Assembly (NCBI GenBank): GCA_949282555.1
Contig: CASDPK010000002.1
Location: 62,001 to 126,000 of the forward strand
Length of the DNA stretch: 64,000 bases
Direction: 5' to 3'
Source: an uncultured Lentisphaeraceae bacterium
GTDB taxonomy: Bacteria > Verrucomicrobiota > Kiritimatiellia > RFP12 > DVOR01
The notes under the pieces were generated by a model that saw nothing but the letters and a program-made list of their open reading frames with translations, made no database searches and had not been told where the DNA came from. The translations under genes and the position numbers were made by a program. Positions 9,890 to 58,832 of the stretch are shown here, piece after piece (the stretch's first letter is position 1; every line of letters begins with the position of its first letter).

Positions 9890-10568
9890 TTACGCTATCC
9901 GGCGACGAAGTGCCACACCGGCAACACCGAGCACGAATAGTCCCAATGCCGTTGGTTCGGGAAGGATTCCAGGAGCCGTCTCCACCTTACCCCCATCAAA
10001 ATCCGCATAGGCAAACCCATTGAAAAGAGCATCGTTGGCCCCAGGAAATGTTCCGAGACCGATCCAGTCTAACACGTCATTACTCTCAACATTCGCCAAT
10101 GTTTGCCAAAAGCATTCCATTGATATAGGCCGAAAGCGTTCCCTCCGCCTTGTCGTAATCAAAAATAAGTTCAATGGGAGTGCCAAAGCCAACGGTCACC
10201 TCTGAACCATGAAGGGTGCCTTTTTGCGTATAATCGCCCGTTGTATAAAGCCCAACGGTGCCCGTTGTGGCGTTGGTAGTTCCGGAGAGCGTGAACGAGT
10301 AATAGGTGTCCTTCAACCGTATATTCATCATCGTCGCGTAGGCATCCTTGCAGAACCAATCAACCGACCCATTGCCTAGAACGACGGTAGCCTTGGGTGC
10401 TAGGTGAGGAGTCGCCGCAAACGAAGGAAGTTTGCCACTTTCAGAAGTCTGCCAACAGAGATCATCGCCATCCACGACCATTTCAAGAGTCCCATTCCAA
10501 TTGGCGGTGATAGCGGCAACGGATCCAGTAAGTGTAAGTCCAATGGCCAATATGAAAGTCTTAAACAT
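9890..10568 (-). pseudogene. PEP-CTERM exported protein split by a frameshift
   Basis: The first frame starts at 10568 (MFKTFILAIG, a clear signal peptide ending near VAA) and runs to a stop at 10086. The +1 frame then carries the natural ending NDVLDWIGLG...LPEPTALGLFVLGVAGVALRRRIA, a PEP-CTERM sorting tail with its stop at 9890. The frames overlap near 10090-10120; dropping one base, for example in the CTTTTGG run, joins them into a protein of about 225 residues. The mature start ITANW matches the other three PEP-CTERM proteins here. The middle looks like a beta-sandwich (LIFDYDKAEGTLSAYINGM). Possible causes are recent decay, a sequencing error, or phase or programmed shifting. The strong promoter and terminator are still present, so loss would be recent. 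Confidence 0.75.
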
Positions 10569-26504: not shown

Positions 26505-27707
26505 ATGAACGATGATGCCCTTCCTTCCGAGTTGTGCGACGAAATCCGCCGCCGTGTCTTTGCCCCAGGATTCATCCGCCTCACGCAGTCGCTGACGCGC
26601 GAGGGGCGCCCCTTCCGCATTTCCCTGCGGCCCGTACGCCTCAAAGGGGAGGCGTTCTTTCAGGCGGAGATGACCGACGATGGCCGCACCCAAGTGCGCA
26701 ATCTCTCCGAAGGCCCCGCCCGCAAGGGATTGGAGCAGATCCTCTCCCAAGCCGGCAAGCGCGATCTCCACCTCGTGACGGCCGAGGGGGATCTCCATGT
26801 CCGCGTCACCAAAAAGGGCCGTCCGCTCGTCTCCCGCGGCAAGGCCAAAGCGCCCGTCGAGGGCGCCGCCGTGCCCGAGGCGCCCACCCATGACCGCGTG
26901 AAGCGTCAGCCGCTCACCGATTTCGACGCCACGCTGCTCCTGCGCGTGCTCGGGCTGGCCGACGATCGGGGCGCCATAAAGCCCTCCATGCGCGGCAAAT
27001 ACGACCAAGTGAACGCCCTTTTGCGCGCCGTGGAGCCGCTGTTGCCCGACGCGCCGCCCGCGACCTTCACGGTGGTGGATTGCGGGTGCGGCAAGGCCTA
27101 CCTCACCCTCGCGCTCCAGCGCTTCCTCGTCTGCGCCAAAGGCTGGCCCTCCGTGCGCGTGATCGGCATCGACCGCAACGCGGAGGTGGTCGCCTCCGCA
27201 CGTGCGATGGCCAACGCCCTCGGGCTCGGCCCGGAAGAGGCGGACTTCCGCGCCTGCGCCATCGCCGACGCCGACCTCCCCAAGGCCCCCGACCTCGTGA
27301 TGAGCCTGCACGCCTGCGACACCGCCACCGACGACGCCCTCATCGCCGCCGTCCGCACCGAGGCCTCCCGCATCCTTTGCGTGCCCTGCTGCCAACATGA
27401 GCTCCACCATGCGCTCGTGGGCGGCGGCCCCATGCGTGCGGCGCTCCGCCACGGCATCCTGCGCGAACGCTTGGCCGACCTCCTCACCGACACCTTCCGC
27501 GCACAGGTGCTCCGCATCTGCGGCTACCGCGCCCGCGTGATGGAATTCGTCTCCCCCGAGGCCACCGGGCGCAACCTGCTCATCCGCGCCGAACGCGGCC
27601 TGCGCCCCGGCCTCGGCGAAGCGCTCGCCGAATATCGCGGTCTGTGCGACTTCTGGGGCGTGGAGCCCTACATCGGCAAAGCGCTGGTTCCCGCGTCCGA
27701 AGCCTAA
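26505..27707 (+). CDS. SAM-dependent methyltransferase (Methyltransf_32-like)
   Basis: The 400-residue product has an N-terminal domain of unclear fold (residues 1-125). A class I methyltransferase domain follows with motif I VVDCGCGKAYLTLAL near residue 190 and VIGIDRNAEVVASA next. SLHACDTATDDAL and CVPCCQHELHH come after, a pattern seen in the METTL25/GSTCD-like Methyltransf_32 group. The target, RNA or protein, is unknown. The ATG at 26505, 7 bp past the ClC stop, starts the family-like region, and the gene is probably the third of that operon. A hairpin repeat follows 46 bp after the stop. Confidence 0.72.
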   Translation: MNDDALPSELCDEIRRRVFAPGFIRLTQSLTREGRPFRISLRPVRLKGEAFFQAEMTDDGRTQVRNLSEGPARKGLEQILSQAGKRDLHLVTAEGDLHVRVTKKGRPLVSRGKAKAPVEGAAVPEAPTHDRVKRQPLTDFDATLLLRVLGLADDRGAIKPSMRGKYDQVNALLRAVEPLLPDAPPATFTVVDCGCGKAYLTLALQRFLVCAKGWPSVRVIGIDRNAEVVASARAMANALGLGPEEADFRACAIADADLPKAPDLVMSLHACDTATDDALIAAVRTEASRILCVPCCQHELHHALVGGGPMRAALRHGILRERLADLLTDTFRAQVLRICGYRARVMEFVSPEATGRNLLIRAERGLRPGLGEALAEYRGLCDFWGVEPYIGKALVPASEA

Positions 27708-27729: not shown

Positions 27730-27748
27730 CGGGATGCAGTGCATCCCG
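27730..27748. repeat. 19-bp palindrome
   Basis: Perfect arms CGGGATGCA/TGCATCCCG flank a single G. It sits directly before the larger hairpin repeat, downstream of the methyltransferase gene, and may be part of the same element. Confidence 0.5.
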
Positions 27749-27753
27749 ACCCC

Positions 27754-27790
27754 AGAGGCTCCGTATCTCACCCCGGGATACGGAGCCTCT
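27754..27790. repeat. Hairpin repeat element, copy 1
   Basis: Perfect 14-bp arms AGAGGCTCCGTATC/GATACGGAGCCTCT enclose a 9-base loop. The same stem recurs at 40952-40986, and its left half recurs at 58868. It lies 46 bp after a stop codon and could also stop transcription, though no T-run follows. Confidence 0.7.
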
Positions 27791-27812
27791 CGCATTTCGC
27801 CCCTGTGAGAAA

Positions 27813-27863: not shown

Positions 27864-28001
27864 TCACGCGACCTTTCGGCGCAATGCCAGCCCCGCCACG
27901 CCCACGGCAAGCAACGCCAACACGGTGGGTCCCGGGAGCGATGTGAAATCCTCTGCCGTGGCGTTCCTAAGTGGGCCGCAACGGTTTTCCCGCGTCCCCA
28001 T
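27864..28001 (-). pseudogene. Orphan PEP-CTERM sorting tail
   Basis: The minus-strand frame ends LPGPTVLALLAVGVAG followed by LALRRKVA and a stop, clearly a PEP-CTERM tail in which the second motif residue is Gly instead of Glu (PGP for PEP). Only about 45 residues are open back to an ATG at 28001; the rest (GTRENRCGPLRN) is not a signal peptide. No exported domain precedes it. A good terminator still follows. This is best read as the 3' remnant of a PEP-CTERM gene whose body was deleted, lying head-to-head with the intact gene at 28143. Confidence 0.7.
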
Positions 28002-28017
28002 CCGCCAAAATAACACA

Positions 28018-28045
28018 TTGACGATGGGGGGGGTTATGTTATTGT
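28018..28045 (+). promoter_or_regulatory. PEP-CTERM gene promoter with a G8 tract in the spacer
   Basis: TTGACG (28018-28023), a 16-bp spacer containing eight consecutive G (28026-28033), and TATTGT (28040-28045). Gain or loss of G would change the -35/-10 distance, the classic slipped-strand switch. The leader of about 90 bases contains a hairpin at 28070-28098 (CCGTTG/CAACGG with an inner GC stem). Confidence 0.6.
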
Positions 28046-28142
28046 GAGGGCAGTCGCGAGGGGAGTCCGCCGTTGGGCGGGGAGCTTTCCCGCAACGGAT
28101 TCACCGCAGGGCGACCTGCTTCTTGGAAAGAATGAGGGACGT

Positions 28143-28760
28143 ATGAAAAAGCTGTTCGCATGTGCCATCGCGGCGCTCGTTGTCGGTGCCGCCGGCGCCA
28201 TCAACACCACTTGGGAATCGCCTGGTTCCGGCTCAACCACGATTGCCCTGCCCGGCGGATGGGCGAACCACCCAACGCTCGTGGTCTCCATCACATATAC
28301 CATCGCGAACGACTTCAACCAAGGCACCACGGGAGGCGGCAGTGACATCTTCCGCCTTGGTTGGAACGGCAACACGAGCACGGACGTATCCAACCCGCAA
28401 ATGCTGGCGTTGCGCAAGCCTGGCAATGGCGACCCGGGCGTGAACGTTTCGTTCAACGGCGGCCAATTTGCGAACACGGCGGTGGAGGGATTGTTCTCCG
28501 TGGGAGACCACACGCTGACGCTGACGTTTGAGAATTGGTCGGATTCCAACCGTAGCTTGACAGCGAAGCTGGACGACGGCAGTGAGATTAACATTGCCAT
28601 GCCGGAGAATAATGTGACCTTTAGCTCCAACGGCTCGTTGGTGCTATGGGATTCGGGGCGCGCAGGTAACCTAGAGGTGACCGTCACGCCCGAGCCGACG
28701 GCGTTGGCATTGCTGGCGCTGGGTGTGGCTGGAGTGGCGTTGCGCCGGCGAGTGGCGTAA
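28143..28760 (+). CDS. PEP-CTERM exported protein
   Basis: The 205-residue protein has a signal peptide (MKKLFACAIAALVVGAAGA), a mature start INTTWESPG, and a beta-rich middle of about 150 residues resembling a lectin-like sandwich. The tail is TPEPTALALLALGVAG followed by VALRRRVA. The tail holds the Pro-Glu-Pro motif, a membrane helix and an Arg cluster, as needed for exosortase processing. Mature proteins of this kind reach the surface or the extracellular matrix; no enzyme motif is visible. The ATG at 28143 follows GAGGG. It is transcribed from the G8-containing promoter and has its own terminator. Confidence 0.85.
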   Translation: MKKLFACAIAALVVGAAGAINTTWESPGSGSTTIALPGGWANHPTLVVSITYTIANDFNQGTTGGGSDIFRLGWNGNTSTDVSNPQMLALRKPGNGDPGVNVSFNGGQFANTAVEGLFSVGDHTLTLTFENWSDSNRSLTAKLDDGSEINIAMPENNVTFSSNGSLVLWDSGRAGNLEVTVTPEPTALALLALGVAGVALRRRVA

Positions 28761-28783
28761 GCGGGTTTTCCGCTTCCGGTCGG

Positions 28784-28820
28784 AGGGTTCTTCGTGATAC
28801 CACGGAGAACCCTTTGGTTT
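28784..28820 (+). terminator. Terminator after the PEP-CTERM gene
   Basis: The stem AGGGTTCTTCGTG/CACGGAGAACCCT (one mismatch) with a 4-base loop is followed by TTGGTTT, 24 bp after the stop. Confidence 0.75.
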
Positions 28821-28930
28821 AGTGTGTGACGCGATGCATCTTACCGGAGGGGAAACGATCTTGACGCAGGGCTTTTTGTGGGGATTGGGCGCGAGCGAAC
28901 GACCGTGACGAAACGGCAACGCAGACCCCG

Positions 28931-30865
28931 TCAGTCCGTGAGGGCCTCAAGGGCGGTGGCGGCTTCTTCCCACTCAAGGGACAGTTTGCCAAGGTCGAAT
29001 TGAAGGGCGCGGAGACGCTTCCCGGCATCGGCGAGGCCCTGGGCGTCCAAGGAACCATCGCCAAGGCGGGCCGTGAGCTCGGCTTGCTCGGCCTCCAATT
29101 GGGCGATGGCGGCCTCGGCTTCGGCGACTTTGCGCTTGAGGCGTTTGACCTCGGGGGCCTTGGCGGCGCGTTCTTGGGCGCGTTGGCGGCGGAGATCCTT
29201 GGAGGAGACCTTGGGGGCCTCGACGGGGCGCGGGGCCTCCTCAACGGGGGCCTCGCCGGCAATCTTCTCAAGATAATAATCATAGCCGCCGGGGAATCGG
29301 CGGATGCCGCGGCGGGAGACTTCGAGGATGTTTTGGGCGGTGCCGCGGACGAACTCGACGTCGTGGGAGACGAGGACGACGGTGCCATCGTAGTCACGGA
29401 CGGCCTGCTGGAGACGCTCGCGGCCCTCGAGGTCGAGGTGGGTGGTGGGTTCGTCGAGCAACAGGAAGTTGGGCGGATTGAGGAAGAGGCGCAGGAAGGC
29501 CAAACGGATCTTCTCACCGCCGGAGAGCACCTTCACGCACTTGGCACAGTCGCCCGCATCAAAGCCAAAGCCGCCCAAGCGGTTGCGCAGTTCCTTTTCG
29601 GGCAGTGCGCCGGCGGCGGCCTTGGCCACGGCAAAGACCGTTTCATCGGGGTTCATGGTCTCCGCAAAATCCTGGCTCTGATAGCCGGGGGCCACATGGT
29701 AGCCGAAGACGGCCTTGCCCTCGGTGGGGGCGCGGACGCCGGCCAGCACGCGCAGAAGCGTGGTTTTGCCCATGCCGTTGTAGCCCACGATGGCAATCTT
29801 GTCGCCGTTCATCACGCGCAGGTCGAGCCCGGAGAAGACGGGGTGATCGCTTCCCGGATAGGCATAGGCCGCGCCCTCCAGCCGCACGATCTCGGCCCCC
29901 GCGTGGGGGGCCTTGGGCAGGCGGAGGTAGCCCGCGGAACGGGAACGCGCGGGGAGGCGGATCTCCTCCATCTTTTCCAGCTGGCGTTCGCGGCTCTGCG
30001 CTTGGGAGGCCTTGGTGGCCTGTGCGCGGAAGCGTTCCACGAAGCGCTCCAACTGCTCGCGTTTGCGATCCTGGTTGGCCTTGGCTTGGAGAAGCTGGCG
30101 GTAGCGGGTCTCGCGCTCGGTGAGATAGTAATCCAAGGGGCCGTTGTAGCGGGTCACGGTGCCGCCATCCACCTCCACGGTGATGCGCGTGATGGCCCGC
30201 AACAGATAGCGGTCGTGCGAGATGAGCACCAACGTGCCCTCAAAGCCGCGCAGGAAACGCTGGAGCCACTCCACCGCGGGGAGGTCGAGATAGTTGGAAG
30301 GCTCGTCGAGCAGGAGCAATTCGGGCTTGGAGGCCAGCACGCGCGAGAGCTCCGCACGCATTCGCCATCCGCCGGAGAAGGTGGCGAAGGGGCGACCAAA
30401 ATCCTCCGTGGCGTAGCCAAGGCCGCCGAGCGACTCCTTCACGCGGGCTTCCAGCGACCATCCCCCCATCTGCTCGAAGCGCGTGTGCGCCTCGCCCAAT
30501 TCGCGCAACATCCGCGCCTTCGCCGTGGGGTCCTTTTCGACCGCCAAGGCTTCCTCCAACCGCGCGATGTCACGCTCGGTGCGCTCGAACCCGGGGATGC
30601 CCTCCAGGCAATACTGCAACAACGTCTGCTCCGGGGAATCCGGCTCCAAGTGCTGACGCACGAACCCAATGCGCGGGGCGCCCTCGTGAAGGACGTCGCC
30701 CACATCGGGCGTCAAATCCCCGAGGATCAGCCGAAAGAGCGTGGATTTCCCCGAGCCGTTCGGCCCGACGATTCCCACGCGTTCGCCCGCATTGATCTTG
30801 AAAGAGGCGTGCTCAAAGAGTGCCTTGGGCCCATACCGTACGCTGACATCGCGAAACTCAATCAT
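28931..30865 (-). CDS. ABC-F family ATPase
   Basis: The 644-residue soluble protein has two ABC ATPase domains. Walker A motifs are VGPNGSGKSTL (near residue 35) and VGYNGMGKTTL, signature motifs are FSGGWRMRAEL and LSGGEKIRLAF, and Walker B motifs are LLLLDEPSNYLDL and LLLDEPTTHLDL. A charged linker (about 235-320) joins them and a C-terminal coiled coil closes the protein. There are no membrane segments. This is the ABC-F layout of Uup/EttA/YheS-type ribosome-associated factors; the exact subfamily was not resolved. The ATG at 30865 starts the first ABC domain; a longer in-frame start at 31045 lies inside the neighbouring gene's opposite side and lacks homology. Confidence 0.9.
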   Translation of the reverse strand: MIEFRDVSVRYGPKALFEHASFKINAGERVGIVGPNGSGKSTLFRLILGDLTPDVGDVLHEGAPRIGFVRQHLEPDSPEQTLLQYCLEGIPGFERTERDIARLEEALAVEKDPTAKARMLRELGEAHTRFEQMGGWSLEARVKESLGGLGYATEDFGRPFATFSGGWRMRAELSRVLASKPELLLLDEPSNYLDLPAVEWLQRFLRGFEGTLVLISHDRYLLRAITRITVEVDGGTVTRYNGPLDYYLTERETRYRQLLQAKANQDRKREQLERFVERFRAQATKASQAQSRERQLEKMEEIRLPARSRSAGYLRLPKAPHAGAEIVRLEGAAYAYPGSDHPVFSGLDLRVMNGDKIAIVGYNGMGKTTLLRVLAGVRAPTEGKAVFGYHVAPGYQSQDFAETMNPDETVFAVAKAAAGALPEKELRNRLGGFGFDAGDCAKCVKVLSGGEKIRLAFLRLFLNPPNFLLLDEPTTHLDLEGRERLQQAVRDYDGTVVLVSHDVEFVRGTAQNILEVSRRGIRRFPGGYDYYLEKIAGEAPVEEAPRPVEAPKVSSKDLRRQRAQERAAKAPEVKRLKRKVAEAEAAIAQLEAEQAELTARLGDGSLDAQGLADAGKRLRALQFDLGKLSLEWEEAATALEALTD

Positions 30866-30903
30866 TCCGTGATTATAACAAACCCTTCCGCGAAGGGCCC
30901 CGC

Positions 30904-33903
30904 TCAGCGTTCGGCGCGGAGGCGAAAGAAGGCGGAGGGCTCGGAGAGCGAAAAGGTGAGGACGCGCACGCCGGGTTCGGATGCGTCTGTCGCAATCAAC
31001 GGAAGCGGCGCCTTTGCGGTGTTCCCCGCGACATCGCAGGGCCAAACGGAGACTTCGGTGCCTTCAGCATAGTCCGCCGGGGCGCCGGCCTTCCCAGAGA
31101 CGGAGGCCTCGACCGTGAGCGTATGCGCACCGGTTTCGTCCGGGACGGAGAGATCAAGCGCGGTGACGGCAAATGTCCACTCCGCAGAGATCGCTTGGAC
31201 ACCGTCCACAGGGTCACCTTGGAACTCGGGAGCAATGCCCGAGAAGAGATGCAGGGCCTCCGCGGCGGCTTCGGAAACAACGCGGAGCGTATGCACGCCG
31301 GTCGAGGGCACAAAAGGCAATGTCCCCATAAGAGCCGTAGCGAGATCATCCGCGAGGGGTTCTTCCCCTGCGTCTCCCATCAGTGTGAGGGTGATCCGGC
31401 GGATTGCCTCGGGCAAAACCGTCTCTCGAATCCAAAGCGTGTCAGCCGTCCACGGGAAGTTGCCACCAAGGAGCGTGAGGGAGCCTGCGGCGGCGAGACT
31501 GGGGGCCGAGGCTTTCGCAGAGCCATTGCGGTTGGCAATCCACGGCTGAGCCCGGAAGGGATCGGCAGAGGATGACGTGATGGAGGCCCCGGCGCACCAC
31601 GTGACACCGAGGGCTTTGAGGAAGTCGGCAGGCAATTTGTTCAGGTTGCCAATGGCGCCTCCCGCGGCATTTAGGCTTCCGTCACGGGCTTCCAATCGGG
31701 CCGTTGGGCGCAGGATGACCGAGCAATCGGAGAAGGTGATGGCGGGGGCGTTGTCCCAGTTGAATTGCCCCACCAAGCCGCCAACGTCGGCATTGGCCGT
31801 CATCGTCACGGCATTCCCTAGGGAGTCGACGGCACGAGAGGTCACCGTACCGGCGAGATCAAGCGAGACCTCTCGCACGGTGATGGCCCCGTTTTCGGTG
31901 TAGAACTGTCCCGTAAGGGCTCCCACCTCGTGTTGTCCCCGCAATTCCGCGCCTTCGCGGAGGATCAGGCGGACTCGTTCCACGGTGGCCCCGGCATTGA
32001 GGTAGGCCGAGAGGAGCCCCGCGCAGGCCCCTTGCCCCCCGCGCGTGGTGAGCCTAACCTCATTCCCTCGGCCTGTCCCGGCGTCCTGCTTCCGATCTCG
32101 CCGGGAGATGATGCGCCCGGAGCAATCCACCGTAAGGTCACGGACGGTTCCGGAGAGATGGATGAAGAGGGCGGCTTCGTCGTATGAAACGATCCACGTA
32201 TCCCTGGGCAATGTGAGTGTGTGTCCCTCTCCCTCCAGCACGCCGGAGAAGGCCGGGACCGGGCGCGGGTCATGCGAGAACACGATGTCGGCCCCAAGGC
32301 GCGCCATTTTCACGTCGGCGGCGTGATCGGCAAACCAAAACCAATCCTCCTCGGTGCGAAGCGTCACAGTGCCATCGGCAGCCGTCTCGGGGGTGGGCCA
32401 ATCCCACGCGGTGCGAGGCCAAATGACCTGAGCTTGTGCGCGCCCAAGCGATTGGCTGTGTGTCCACTCGGTGTCGGAGTAATAGCCCCAACTCATGACG
32501 CCGCCCAAATCCCATTCCAAACAGGCCCGCACCTTCCCGCGATAGGTCGTGGGGCCCGTGAAGGTTTGGAGCACCTCTCGGAAGGGGCAAGCATCGCAAT
32601 CGTCACCGGTGTACCCGGGCTGACCCACCACCGTGGCCCACCCCGGCTGACTCCACGTATTGGTGTCGTTGCCATAAATCGCCTGGCCCATCACCAGCCT
32701 CCGGGCGGGGACTGCGCGGGTGTCGCGAAGCGTCTCGACACTTTCACGTTGGAGACGGAAGGGTGCATTCAGGGAGGTGCCGTCATAGGCCATCACGTTG
32801 ATGTAGTCAAAAAGTGCGAGCGTTCCCTTCGGTTGCGACCGATAATATGCCGCTATCGCCGCCGAAAGTTCCCACCCATGGGCAAAAAAGGCATCCTTGA
32901 GCGCCCCCATCGTCTTGGCGTAATTCTGGAATTGCTCCGGCGTTGCGCAATACTCCCAGTCCACGTCCAGCCCATCGGCCCCCAGCGTCTCCAAAGCGGA
33001 AACCACCGAAGCCACAAACGCGGTGCGATGCGCATCACTCATCGCTTGCCGAAGCGCCTCGCTTTTCTCGGGGCTTCCATTGGTCACGACCTTCAGATGC
33101 AATGCGGGATGATGCGCCGCCCGCAACTCTTTGAGTCGCCGAAAGGTCGCCGCGTAGCCCTCCGAAACGTTGAGTACATAGGCCCCATCCTTCTCCACCA
33201 CTTCACAAGGCGCCGACCCATTGCCGATCACCAGCACTTCCGTGAGCGTGGCAAGGCGCGATGGCTCCTTCTCCCAAAACGCAAGGAGATCTGCCTTGGT
33301 ATACGCGCCAATCCGATGCCGGAAGGGATAGATCCGGTGGACACCACCCGCTGCGGGATCCGCAAACACCTCTCGCGCGTAAACCGTTTCCCCCACCCGA
33401 ACATCCCCCGCGAGTTCCACCGAGAGGGAGGCCTCCGGCGAAATGCCCACCTTCGGGTTCACCACCACCCAAAGCGAATCCCCCGCCTGCAACGTTGCAT
33501 CGATCCCGTTATCGAACGTCAGCGTGAAATCCGTCGCCTCGGCCGGCCCATTCTGCCAGCGCAAACTCTCCGAAGCCGTCTGTCGCGGCTCACCGAAATG
33601 CGGCAAGGCATAGCTGAAAGACTGGCCGATCGAACACTCATTTGCCGCCGCTGTCGCCGTCGCCGGTTGCCGGAAAAGACGGAAACTCGTGAAGTCATCC
33701 GCCGTGCAATGCTCCAACCGAAACCTCACCGGAAGGCTCACCGAATGCTTCCCTGCCGAAGGCACCAACCCTCGAAACCCCAACACCGCCTCTTCCCCGG
33801 CTCCGCGCGTCAGCCAAGGATGCGCACGCACCATCTGCGCCGTCTCCGCCCAAAGCGGGCCCACCACCAGCGCCACCACGAGGCCAAGCATCTGTTTGTA
33901 CAT
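30904..33903 (-). CDS. Large secreted GH18-family protein
   Basis: The 999-residue product has a signal peptide (about 1-19, ending LWAE), a beta-rich N-terminal region to about residue 215, and a GH18 TIM barrel. The barrel carries the catalytic signature DGLDVDWEY (acid Glu intact) and YINVMAYDG. A further 450 residues contain GLUG/beta-helix-like repeats (VGALTGQFY..., VGGLVGQFN...) and a C-terminal beta-domain. GH18 enzymes cleave chitin or the chitobiose core of N-glycans; with mucin-type enzymes nearby, an endo-beta-N-acetylglucosaminidase role is possible. The ATG at 33903 follows GAGGAGC. It is not fused to a PEP-CTERM tail. Confidence 0.8.
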   Translation of the reverse strand: MYKQMLGLVVALVVGPLWAETAQMVRAHPWLTRGAGEEAVLGFRGLVPSAGKHSVSLPVRFRLEHCTADDFTSFRLFRQPATATAAANECSIGQSFSYALPHFGEPRQTASESLRWQNGPAEATDFTLTFDNGIDATLQAGDSLWVVVNPKVGISPEASLSVELAGDVRVGETVYAREVFADPAAGGVHRIYPFRHRIGAYTKADLLAFWEKEPSRLATLTEVLVIGNGSAPCEVVEKDGAYVLNVSEGYAATFRRLKELRAAHHPALHLKVVTNGSPEKSEALRQAMSDAHRTAFVASVVSALETLGADGLDVDWEYCATPEQFQNYAKTMGALKDAFFAHGWELSAAIAAYYRSQPKGTLALFDYINVMAYDGTSLNAPFRLQRESVETLRDTRAVPARRLVMGQAIYGNDTNTWSQPGWATVVGQPGYTGDDCDACPFREVLQTFTGPTTYRGKVRACLEWDLGGVMSWGYYSDTEWTHSQSLGRAQAQVIWPRTAWDWPTPETAADGTVTLRTEEDWFWFADHAADVKMARLGADIVFSHDPRPVPAFSGVLEGEGHTLTLPRDTWIVSYDEAALFIHLSGTVRDLTVDCSGRIISRRDRKQDAGTGRGNEVRLTTRGGQGACAGLLSAYLNAGATVERVRLILREGAELRGQHEVGALTGQFYTENGAITVREVSLDLAGTVTSRAVDSLGNAVTMTANADVGGLVGQFNWDNAPAITFSDCSVILRPTARLEARDGSLNAAGGAIGNLNKLPADFLKALGVTWCAGASITSSSADPFRAQPWIANRNGSAKASAPSLAAAGSLTLLGGNFPWTADTLWIRETVLPEAIRRITLTLMGDAGEEPLADDLATALMGTLPFVPSTGVHTLRVVSEAAAEALHLFSGIAPEFQGDPVDGVQAISAEWTFAVTALDLSVPDETGAHTLTVEASVSGKAGAPADYAEGTEVSVWPCDVAGNTAKAPLPLIATDASEPGVRVLTFSLSEPSAFFRLRAER

Positions 33904-33990
33904 ACGTTGCTCCTCTCCAAAAATCCCAAAATCCCAAACGTTAGCGGTAATTCTAGCACACCGTTCTCTTGCAATGGGGGCCCAATCAAG

Positions 33991-34019
33991 CAAAAAGGGG
34001 CGGACACACGTCCGCCCCT
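33991..34019 (-). terminator. Terminator of the minus-strand PEP-CTERM gene
   Basis: The 10-bp perfect stem AGGGGCGGAC/GTCCGCCCCT with loop ACAC is followed on the minus strand by CTTTTTGC. It starts 26 bp past the stop at 34045. Confidence 0.85.
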
Positions 34020-34044
34020 AAACTCAGCGCCACGGCGCCAGTTC

Positions 34045-34713
34045 TCACGCTACATGGCGGCGAAGTGCCAAGCCAGCCACGCCCAAGGCCAAAAGCGCTA
34101 GCGCCGTCGGCTCGGGAAGAGCTGCAATCTGCGCTGGGGTCATATACGTGTCCGACAAAAATAACCGAATGTCATCTGTACTCTTGAACAAATTATTGTC
34201 AAGGCTGCCCTCCTGCATGTTTTGTCCTATGACGTATTTATACATCCAGAATTCGCCAAGTCCCGTTGTAGGTTCTGTCAGGGAGAAGAAGACGGTTCCG
34301 TTCACCGAAACCTCCAACTTCGAGAAGTTCGCCCCATCACGCTTCATCGAAATCCCAATTACCGCTTGCCCCTCCTCCACTACAGGATTATTAGAGGTTG
34401 CGGCACCCGTCGAGACCCCCTCAAACGAAGCGTGCCATTTACCCGCCCACGTCGAAACGCGAACGTACTTGGTGTCATCTCCAAACGAGATCACCGTCCC
34501 GTTCCCAGGGGAAGTTGAGTTTCCTCCCCCGACCGTTGCGGCTTCCGTCATGTTCGCGATGATCGCAATCGTTCCTTCTCTTCCGGCCGTTATTCTGAAA
34601 TCACTGGGCACTTCCGTTTTCTCGCGATACGCGGCCGTAGACCACGACGTCGTTACGGCCTGCATTGAACACCCAATGGCTGTTGCAATCACAATTGTCA
34701 GTAGGTTTCTCAT
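34045..34713 (-). CDS. PEP-CTERM exported protein, poly-G promoter
   Basis: The 222-residue protein has a signal peptide (MRNLLTIVIATAIGCSMQA) and mature start VTTSWSTAAYREK. Its middle is concanavalin/LamG-like (VSTWAGKWHASFEGV, FSKLEVSVNGTVFFSLTEP). The tail is LPEPTALALLALGVAG followed by LALRRHVA. It probably binds a carbohydrate or forms part of the surface layer or matrix; no catalytic motif is seen. A G10 tract lies in the promoter spacer. The DNA is visibly A+T-richer than its neighbours. An in-frame ATG at 34728 is possible, but the signal peptide begins best at 34713 (site AAAGGGAATGAC). Confidence 0.85.
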   Translation of the reverse strand: MRNLLTIVIATAIGCSMQAVTTSWSTAAYREKTEVPSDFRITAGREGTIAIIANMTEAATVGGGNSTSPGNGTVISFGDDTKYVRVSTWAGKWHASFEGVSTGAATSNNPVVEEGQAVIGISMKRDGANFSKLEVSVNGTVFFSLTEPTTGLGEFWMYKYVIGQNMQEGSLDNNLFKSTDDIRLFLSDTYMTPAQIAALPEPTALALLALGVAGLALRRHVA

Positions 34714-34783
34714 GTCATTCCCTTTCATCTCCTCAGGTTCAGCTGGTGCGCGGACACCCCGCCATTGCTCACCTGTGATGCAC

Positions 34784-34812
34784 ATAGTACCACCCCCCCC
34801 CCATTTGCGCAA
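34784..34812 (-). promoter_or_regulatory. PEP-CTERM gene promoter with a G10 tract in the spacer
   Basis: On the minus strand, TTGCGC (34807-34812), a spacer of exactly 17 bp containing ten consecutive G (C at 34793-34802 on the plus strand), and TACTAT (34784-34789). The tract sits where slippage would change promoter spacing. The leader is about 64 bases. Confidence 0.6.
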
Positions 34813-58803: not shown

Positions 58804-58832
58804 ATACTAACACAACTGTAGGGAGGGGGCAA
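58804..58832 (-). promoter_or_regulatory. Promoter of the fourth PEP-CTERM gene, interrupted C tract
   Basis: On the minus strand, TTGCCC (58827-58832), a 17-bp spacer beginning CCTCCCTAC, and TAGTAT (58804-58809). The spacer tract is broken by T, unlike the pure G8 and G10 at the sister promoters. The predicted leader is about 20 bases. Confidence 0.5.

Follow-up and report, generated by a model that had tools for sequence, protein, structure and literature searches.

The homopolymeric G tracts that precede two PEP-CTERM genes of the 64-kb window (the whole stretch of DNA analysed here) are two cases of a promoter architecture that is both genome-wide and genus-wide. We consider it very likely that these promoters are phase variable in the manner of porA and tp0126, and that together they control a large contingency regulon whose products are exosortase-sorted (PEP-CTERM) or otherwise exported; both the slippage of tracts inside one strain and the switching of expression are inferred. 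Phase-variable promoter spacers are known from few pathogens, with few genes in each, and the purpose of PEP-CTERM proteins is largely unknown. Here, promoters with tract-containing spacers seem to be the rule for exosortase-sorted surface proteins of an uncultured gut lineage and, if this is true, a likely role of PEP-CTERM proteins is that of variable antigens, on the surface or in a matrix, or of structures resembling phage receptors.

Tract promoters of the window

The first-pass annotation had placed G8 and G10 runs between −35 and −10 hexamers, with spacers of 16 and 17 bp, before two genes for surface-sorted PEP-CTERM proteins. The layout was confirmed to the base (Table 1), and both products carry a signal peptide and a PF07589 tail that scores over the cut-off. 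The −35 hexamer of promoter 2 is weak taken alone; the remainder of that promoter fits the genus consensus ...AT-Gn-TGGTAnnnT. The two tracts are the sole G or C runs of at least seven in the window, and neither lies inside a real gene. Since 7.6 runs of at least eight are expected from a first-order Markov model of the window, the tracts are rarer than composition predicts, and the case rests on their position. A third promoter belongs to the poly-C class described below; its interrupted tract, CCCCCTCCC, is, by comparison with the intact C8–C10 loci, a putative stabilised (‘locked’) version of a poly-C promoter.

Table 1. Promoter elements and PEP-CTERM genes of the window
Feature	Position	Strand	Basis
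Inverted repeat flanking G8 tract, left arm AATAACA (role unknown)	28009..28015	+	sequence
Promoter 1, −35 hexamer TTGACG	28018..28023	+	sequence
Promoter 1, G8 tract, inside 16-bp spacer 28024-28039	28026..28033	+	sequence
Same inverted repeat, right arm TGTTATT, overlapping the −10	28037..28043	+	sequence
Promoter 1, −10 hexamer TATTGT, preceded by TG (extended −10-like TATGTTATTGT)	28040..28045	+	sequence
PEP-CTERM gene 1, 205 aa: signal peptide, passenger, PEPTALALLALGVAGVALRRRVA tail	28143..28760	+	PF07589 5.4e-6, over cut-off
PEP-CTERM gene 2, 222 aa; passenger predicted mostly beta-strand	34045..34713	-	PF07589 3.2e-4, over cut-off; structure model
Promoter 2, −10 hexamer TACTAT	34784..34789	-	sequence
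Promoter 2, G10 tract, inside 17-bp spacer 34806-34790	34793..34802	-	sequence
Promoter 2, −35 hexamer TTGCGC	34807..34812	-	sequence
PEP-CTERM gene 3, ~214 aa	58133..58777	-	PF07589 match C2:120142-120210
Third promoter (poly-C class), −10 hexamer TAGTAT	58804..58809	-	sequence
Interrupted C tract, overlapping the third-promoter −35; spacer 17	58821..58829	-	comparison with intact C8–C10 loci
Third promoter, −35 hexamer TTGCCC	58827..58832	-	sequence

The gene upstream of gene 1 is kept in ~11 relatives, and similarity stops at about window position 27690; as judged from this synteny, the gene 1 cassette is restricted to this species among the relatives compared. The HAD-phosphatase neighbour of gene 2 is kept in L107–L113, where the tract-promoter gene is missing, leaving gene 2 without an orthologous tract for comparison. 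A palindromic repeat (cgggatgcagtgcatcccg ... ctccgtatctcaccccgggatacggag, ~27730-27796), with ~20 similar copies in the genome, adjoins the gene 1 cassette. Just 5′ of promoter 1, on the opposite strand, lies a relic of a PEP-CTERM tail (LPGPTVLALLAVGVAGLALRRKVA, 27873-27929, minus strand) whose DNA resembles many PEP-CTERM tails of the genus, and which is possibly a trace of earlier recombination. Elsewhere in the window (9899-9961, minus strand) a PEP-CTERM tail sits in a short reading frame that lacks a signal peptide in the same frame, and looks like a broken gene.

Architecture across the genome and the genus

The host, which is placed in Kiritimatiellae near Candidatus Spyradenecus, has a genome of 2.43 Mb (94% complete) with 30 tracts of at least eight Gs, each of which was read in its context. 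Across the whole genome, TTGAC stands within 15 nt 5′ of nine of these 30 tracts, where 0.28 are expected (P ~7e-12), and on the 3′ side of none; at all nine a −10-like hexamer then follows. A poly-C version, TTG-C9/C10-...TATGCTATCTT, precedes two PEP-CTERM genes. The genome thus has ~12 tract promoters, ~9 of them before PEP-CTERM genes and three before very large exported proteins, an enrichment for PEP-CTERM genes (P ~2e-16) that rests on an assumed gene total of 2000. PF07589 matches number 24, with 23 over the cut-off, and the same genome encodes an exosortase (PF09721, 1.9e-36, C33:18268-19026), so that the hallmarks of the system are present: a PEP motif, transmembrane helix and basic end on the product, and the sorting enzyme. 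The other PEP-CTERM matches are mostly genes directly behind another gene (C9 and C10 clusters) or broken relics; one further gene (C30) has a G10 tract within its reading frame. MutS_V was found, and hypermutability through lost mismatch repair is therefore not indicated, a point that weighs against the switch reading.

Counts in related genomes, controlled with the same pattern read backwards, extend this picture. TTGA-N0-8-H-G8 gave ~116 matches in the genus as compared with 12 for the control, and 16 of 17 genomes were positive. A stricter pattern requiring TTGAC gave 64 matches against one in the genus, ~119 against 22 in the rest of the order and 36 against 14 in other orders of the class; in the other classes of the phylum (78 genomes) it stood at background, with 19 against 22. 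The poly-G or poly-C tract occupies different spacer positions in different lineages. Each lineage has a house style: this genus has TTGACNNNAT-Gn-TGGTAT and, as its second style, TTGAC-Gn-AAGTGTGNTA, and the styles of G086, G140 and G034 are TTGACAGCATA-G9, TTGACA-Gn-TAATTGCTAAAAT and TTGACTAAC-Gn, respectively.

In a second class of promoter, TTG-C8-10-GNNNTTATGCTATCTT, poly-C overlaps the −35 and is followed by a conserved extended −10. This class is genus-wide (L235–L254, with three control matches), occurs in the host genome at C1:150931-150959 and C41:14627-14656 (both minus strand), and stands before PEP-CTERM genes at 18 of 19 readable loci, three of which are duplicates. Its spacers are 17 bp long in 15 of 21 cases. 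No exact match to it was found in viral contigs. The ATAA/TTAT arms at these loci show no consistent co-variation, and one half of their palindrome is formed by the extended −10; a regulator–operator reading of the arms is therefore left open.

Genes behind tract promoters encode exported proteins far more often than chance positions do: a strict signal-peptide test was passed by 77%, as compared with 20% at random positions, and PEP-CTERM tails were present in 38%, as compared with 2%. A lenient version of the signal-peptide test passed 59% of random positions. In genomes beyond the genus, tract promoters precede genes for large exported proteins.

Tract length, spacing and the case for switching

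In 124 G-tract promoters the best −10 found up to 20 nt 3′ of the tract scored 5.5, against a background of 0.16 (P 2e-69). The modal spacer was 17 bp (32/124), and 73 spacers fell at 16–18 bp; because scoring picks the best hexamer, some outlying spacers are mis-assigned. Apart from one G30, tract length ranged from 8 to 14 and showed a correlation of −0.07 with the rest of the spacer. With no compensation elsewhere in the spacer, spacing shifts with tract length, and across the genus the two are correlated at 0.45. The earlier claim that a change in tract length alters the −35/−10 spacing is thus upheld, the spacer being seen to vary with the tract about a mode of 17.

Length differences are found between closely similar loci. 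L152 (G10) and L180 (G12), from two species, are identical over 40 bp upstream and 59 bp downstream save for one single-base deletion; the syntenic pairs L127/L165 and L120/L166 have G9 and G8, and G11 and G10, respectively; and in G140 tracts of G9, 10, 11 and 12 occur within near-constant flanks. Such change at constant flanks is the trace that slippage would be expected to leave, but it is seen between species or paralogues and not within one strain. With one genome per species and no reads, comparison of lengths was limited to paralogues and species, and assembled consensus sequences, mostly from draft assemblies, may misjudge homopolymer length. The question of switching can be tested with existing metagenome reads. 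At L198 (G034:C9:15353-19369) a G30 run lies between TTGACT and TATACT, and may be an extreme expansion or an assembly error; a G20 run (L186) stands at the end of a contig and looks erroneous.

The layout resembles systems already described. In Neisseria meningitidis porA and Treponema pallidum tp0126 a poly-G tract between the −35 and −10 controls transcription, with an optimum at 17 nt, and in Neisseria opc a poly-C tract encompasses the −35 (PMC7864442). The promoters described here share with porA the placing of a G tract in the promoter spacer of a surface-protein gene and an optimum of ~17 bp, and with tp0126 a poly-G run between the hexamers and the 17-nt spacing that gives best transcription there; a homopolymer between −35 and −10, tract-dependent spacing of ~17 bp and length variation among related sequences are all present. 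However, porA is a single gene, whereas here, in Kiritimatiellae and with exosortase-sorted products, one genome has about ten loci and a relative has about twenty; tp0126 and the tpr genes belong to a distant phylum and lack a PEP-CTERM tail. The C class meets the opc description in that its TTGC8-10 tract likewise overlaps the −35, but here the tract also reaches into the spacer beyond the −35, with the extended −10 conserved, so that spacing changes. Akkermansia muciniphila, a broadly related bacterium, shares tracts of >8 bp and a PEP-CTERM system (21 proteins), and phase variation has been proposed for it; its tracts, however, sit inside genes, for example capsule genes, and its genome paper reports neither promoter-spacer tracts nor a link between tracts and PEP-CTERM genes (PMC3048395). 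In the literature searched, which left subscription journals largely outside, we found no paper that joins Kiritimatiell* with phase variation or PEP-CTERM, and none that combines exosortase, promoter and homopolymeric.

In the mechanism that we propose, each promoter would be of the sigma-70 type, with a TTGACA-like −35, a homopolymer and a TATAAT-like −10, an assignment supported by sequence and statistics. Gain or loss of one tract unit would move the spacing 1 bp off or onto the 17-bp optimum; here it is the variation of spacer with tract that is observed. Replication slippage in runs of 8–14 would make such changes frequent and reversible, an inference for which differences in length among paralogues and syntenic loci are the visible counterpart. 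Transcription of each gene would then differ from cell to cell, with combinatorial variation of the surface as the outcome; this too is inferred here, and is established for porA and tp0126. The sister class, with its C8–10 tract overlapping the −35, may play the same role for more PEP-CTERM genes, its layout being observed and its effect inferred.

Three other explanations need to be weighed. That stretches of G-rich DNA fall by chance between sequences resembling the hexamers can be set aside: the tract count of the window, being below compositional expectation, is compatible with it, but the position of the tracts is enriched over reversed-pattern controls in the host genome, the genus and the order, which already refutes it. 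The first-pass annotation had argued that two unrelated positions with the same layout speak against chance; that argument is weak by itself, and it is the genome and genus counts that exclude chance. Passive tolerance or artefact, in which slippage or sequencing error lengthens non-coding G runs without any function, is improbable. Most assemblies are indeed drafts, the G20 run looks erroneous and the G30 run may be so; nevertheless, the tracts adjoin a −35 and precede exported proteins across independent assemblies, and a neutral process would not pick out promoter spacers or PEP-CTERM genes.

A more serious objection, though still an unlikely one in our judgement, is that the tract is a promoter element of fixed length, recognised by a regulator or shaping the spacer, and not a switch. 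All nine tracts of the outgroup G086 (L207–L215) are exactly G9 (P ~1e-4 if lengths follow the pooled distribution), and the most natural reading of their −10-like hexamers gives a spacer of 19; these tracts look fixed, not freely variable, and count against switching. Few such promoters with 5–7 Gs were found in a relaxed search of four genomes, so that a minimum length seems to be kept, and the preference of C-class spacers for 17 bp and the ATAA/TTAT arms beside some tracts point the same way. Against this, tracts of 8–14 occur in unchanged flanks, where the total spacer follows the tract and nothing compensates; moreover, G and C runs are both used, and their position in the spacer differs by lineage, unlike a single binding site. 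The phase-variable expression proposed in the first-pass annotation is supported by the genus-wide layout, the 17-bp mode, the exported targets and the differences in tract length; variation within a population, and its effect on expression, are inferred.

Some long G tracts lie within reading frames (L042 4064, G10; L044 4416, G12; L050 4070, G10; L040 4049, G11), namely those of a sugar-transferase-like gene, a 1566-aa surface-protein-like gene, a PEP-CTERM gene and a small membrane protein; these tracts are candidate translational switches.

Passenger exchange and the exported products

At seven syntenic pairs of loci (L152/L180, L127/L165, L124/L159, L117/L120, L120/L166, L150/L182 and L154/L185) the promoter and gene start are 84–94% identical in DNA sequence, and from about the PEP-CTERM tail onward identity is 85–93% across 2–3 kb, while the passenger in between is unalignable or alignable only in part. 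In the clearest three (L124/L159, L152/L180 and L127/L165) the passengers share 27–28% amino acid identity, as compared with an all-pair mean of 24%. The L152 passenger instead shares 75% identity with the one at L179, which belongs to the L180 genome and has another promoter style. L117 and L150 are colinear throughout, and passenger exchange is therefore not universal. The simplest reading of this between-species pattern is that passengers are swapped as cassettes by recombination in the conserved ends.

Independently of tract slippage, then, the passenger may be exchanged between the promoter/signal-peptide end and the PEP-CTERM end, by a mechanism that is inferred. We incline, with limited confidence, to the view that these uncultured gut Kiritimatiellae diversify in two layers, dozens of poly-G and poly-C switches choosing which proteins are made while cassette recombination replaces the passengers. 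What this adds is passenger exchange at loci that retain their switch: the locus keeps its switch and changes its protein.

No Pfam domain was found in the gene 2 passenger, whose structure model (pLDDT 78.5) is mostly beta. A structure search with it returned many jelly-roll matches at E 1e-5, with weak TM-scores of only 0.3–0.45. The modelled fold, a weak match to the Concanavalin A/LamG-like, lectin-type jelly roll, suggests binding of sugar or matrix, which is not established. The top structural matches were receptor-binding domains of clostridial neurotoxins; at these TM-scores they are taken to reflect a common lectin-type jelly-roll fold, and they lend no support to a toxin function.

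The large exported proteins encoded behind tract promoters in G018, G034, G086 and G140 often end in a hydrophobic stretch and a final arginine or lysine (GFSLTIR, GFALMVR, GFMMIVK, GAAIIIR), for example at L207, L211, L214, L216–L219 and L228–L233. These ends are possibly an undescribed C-terminal sorting tag.
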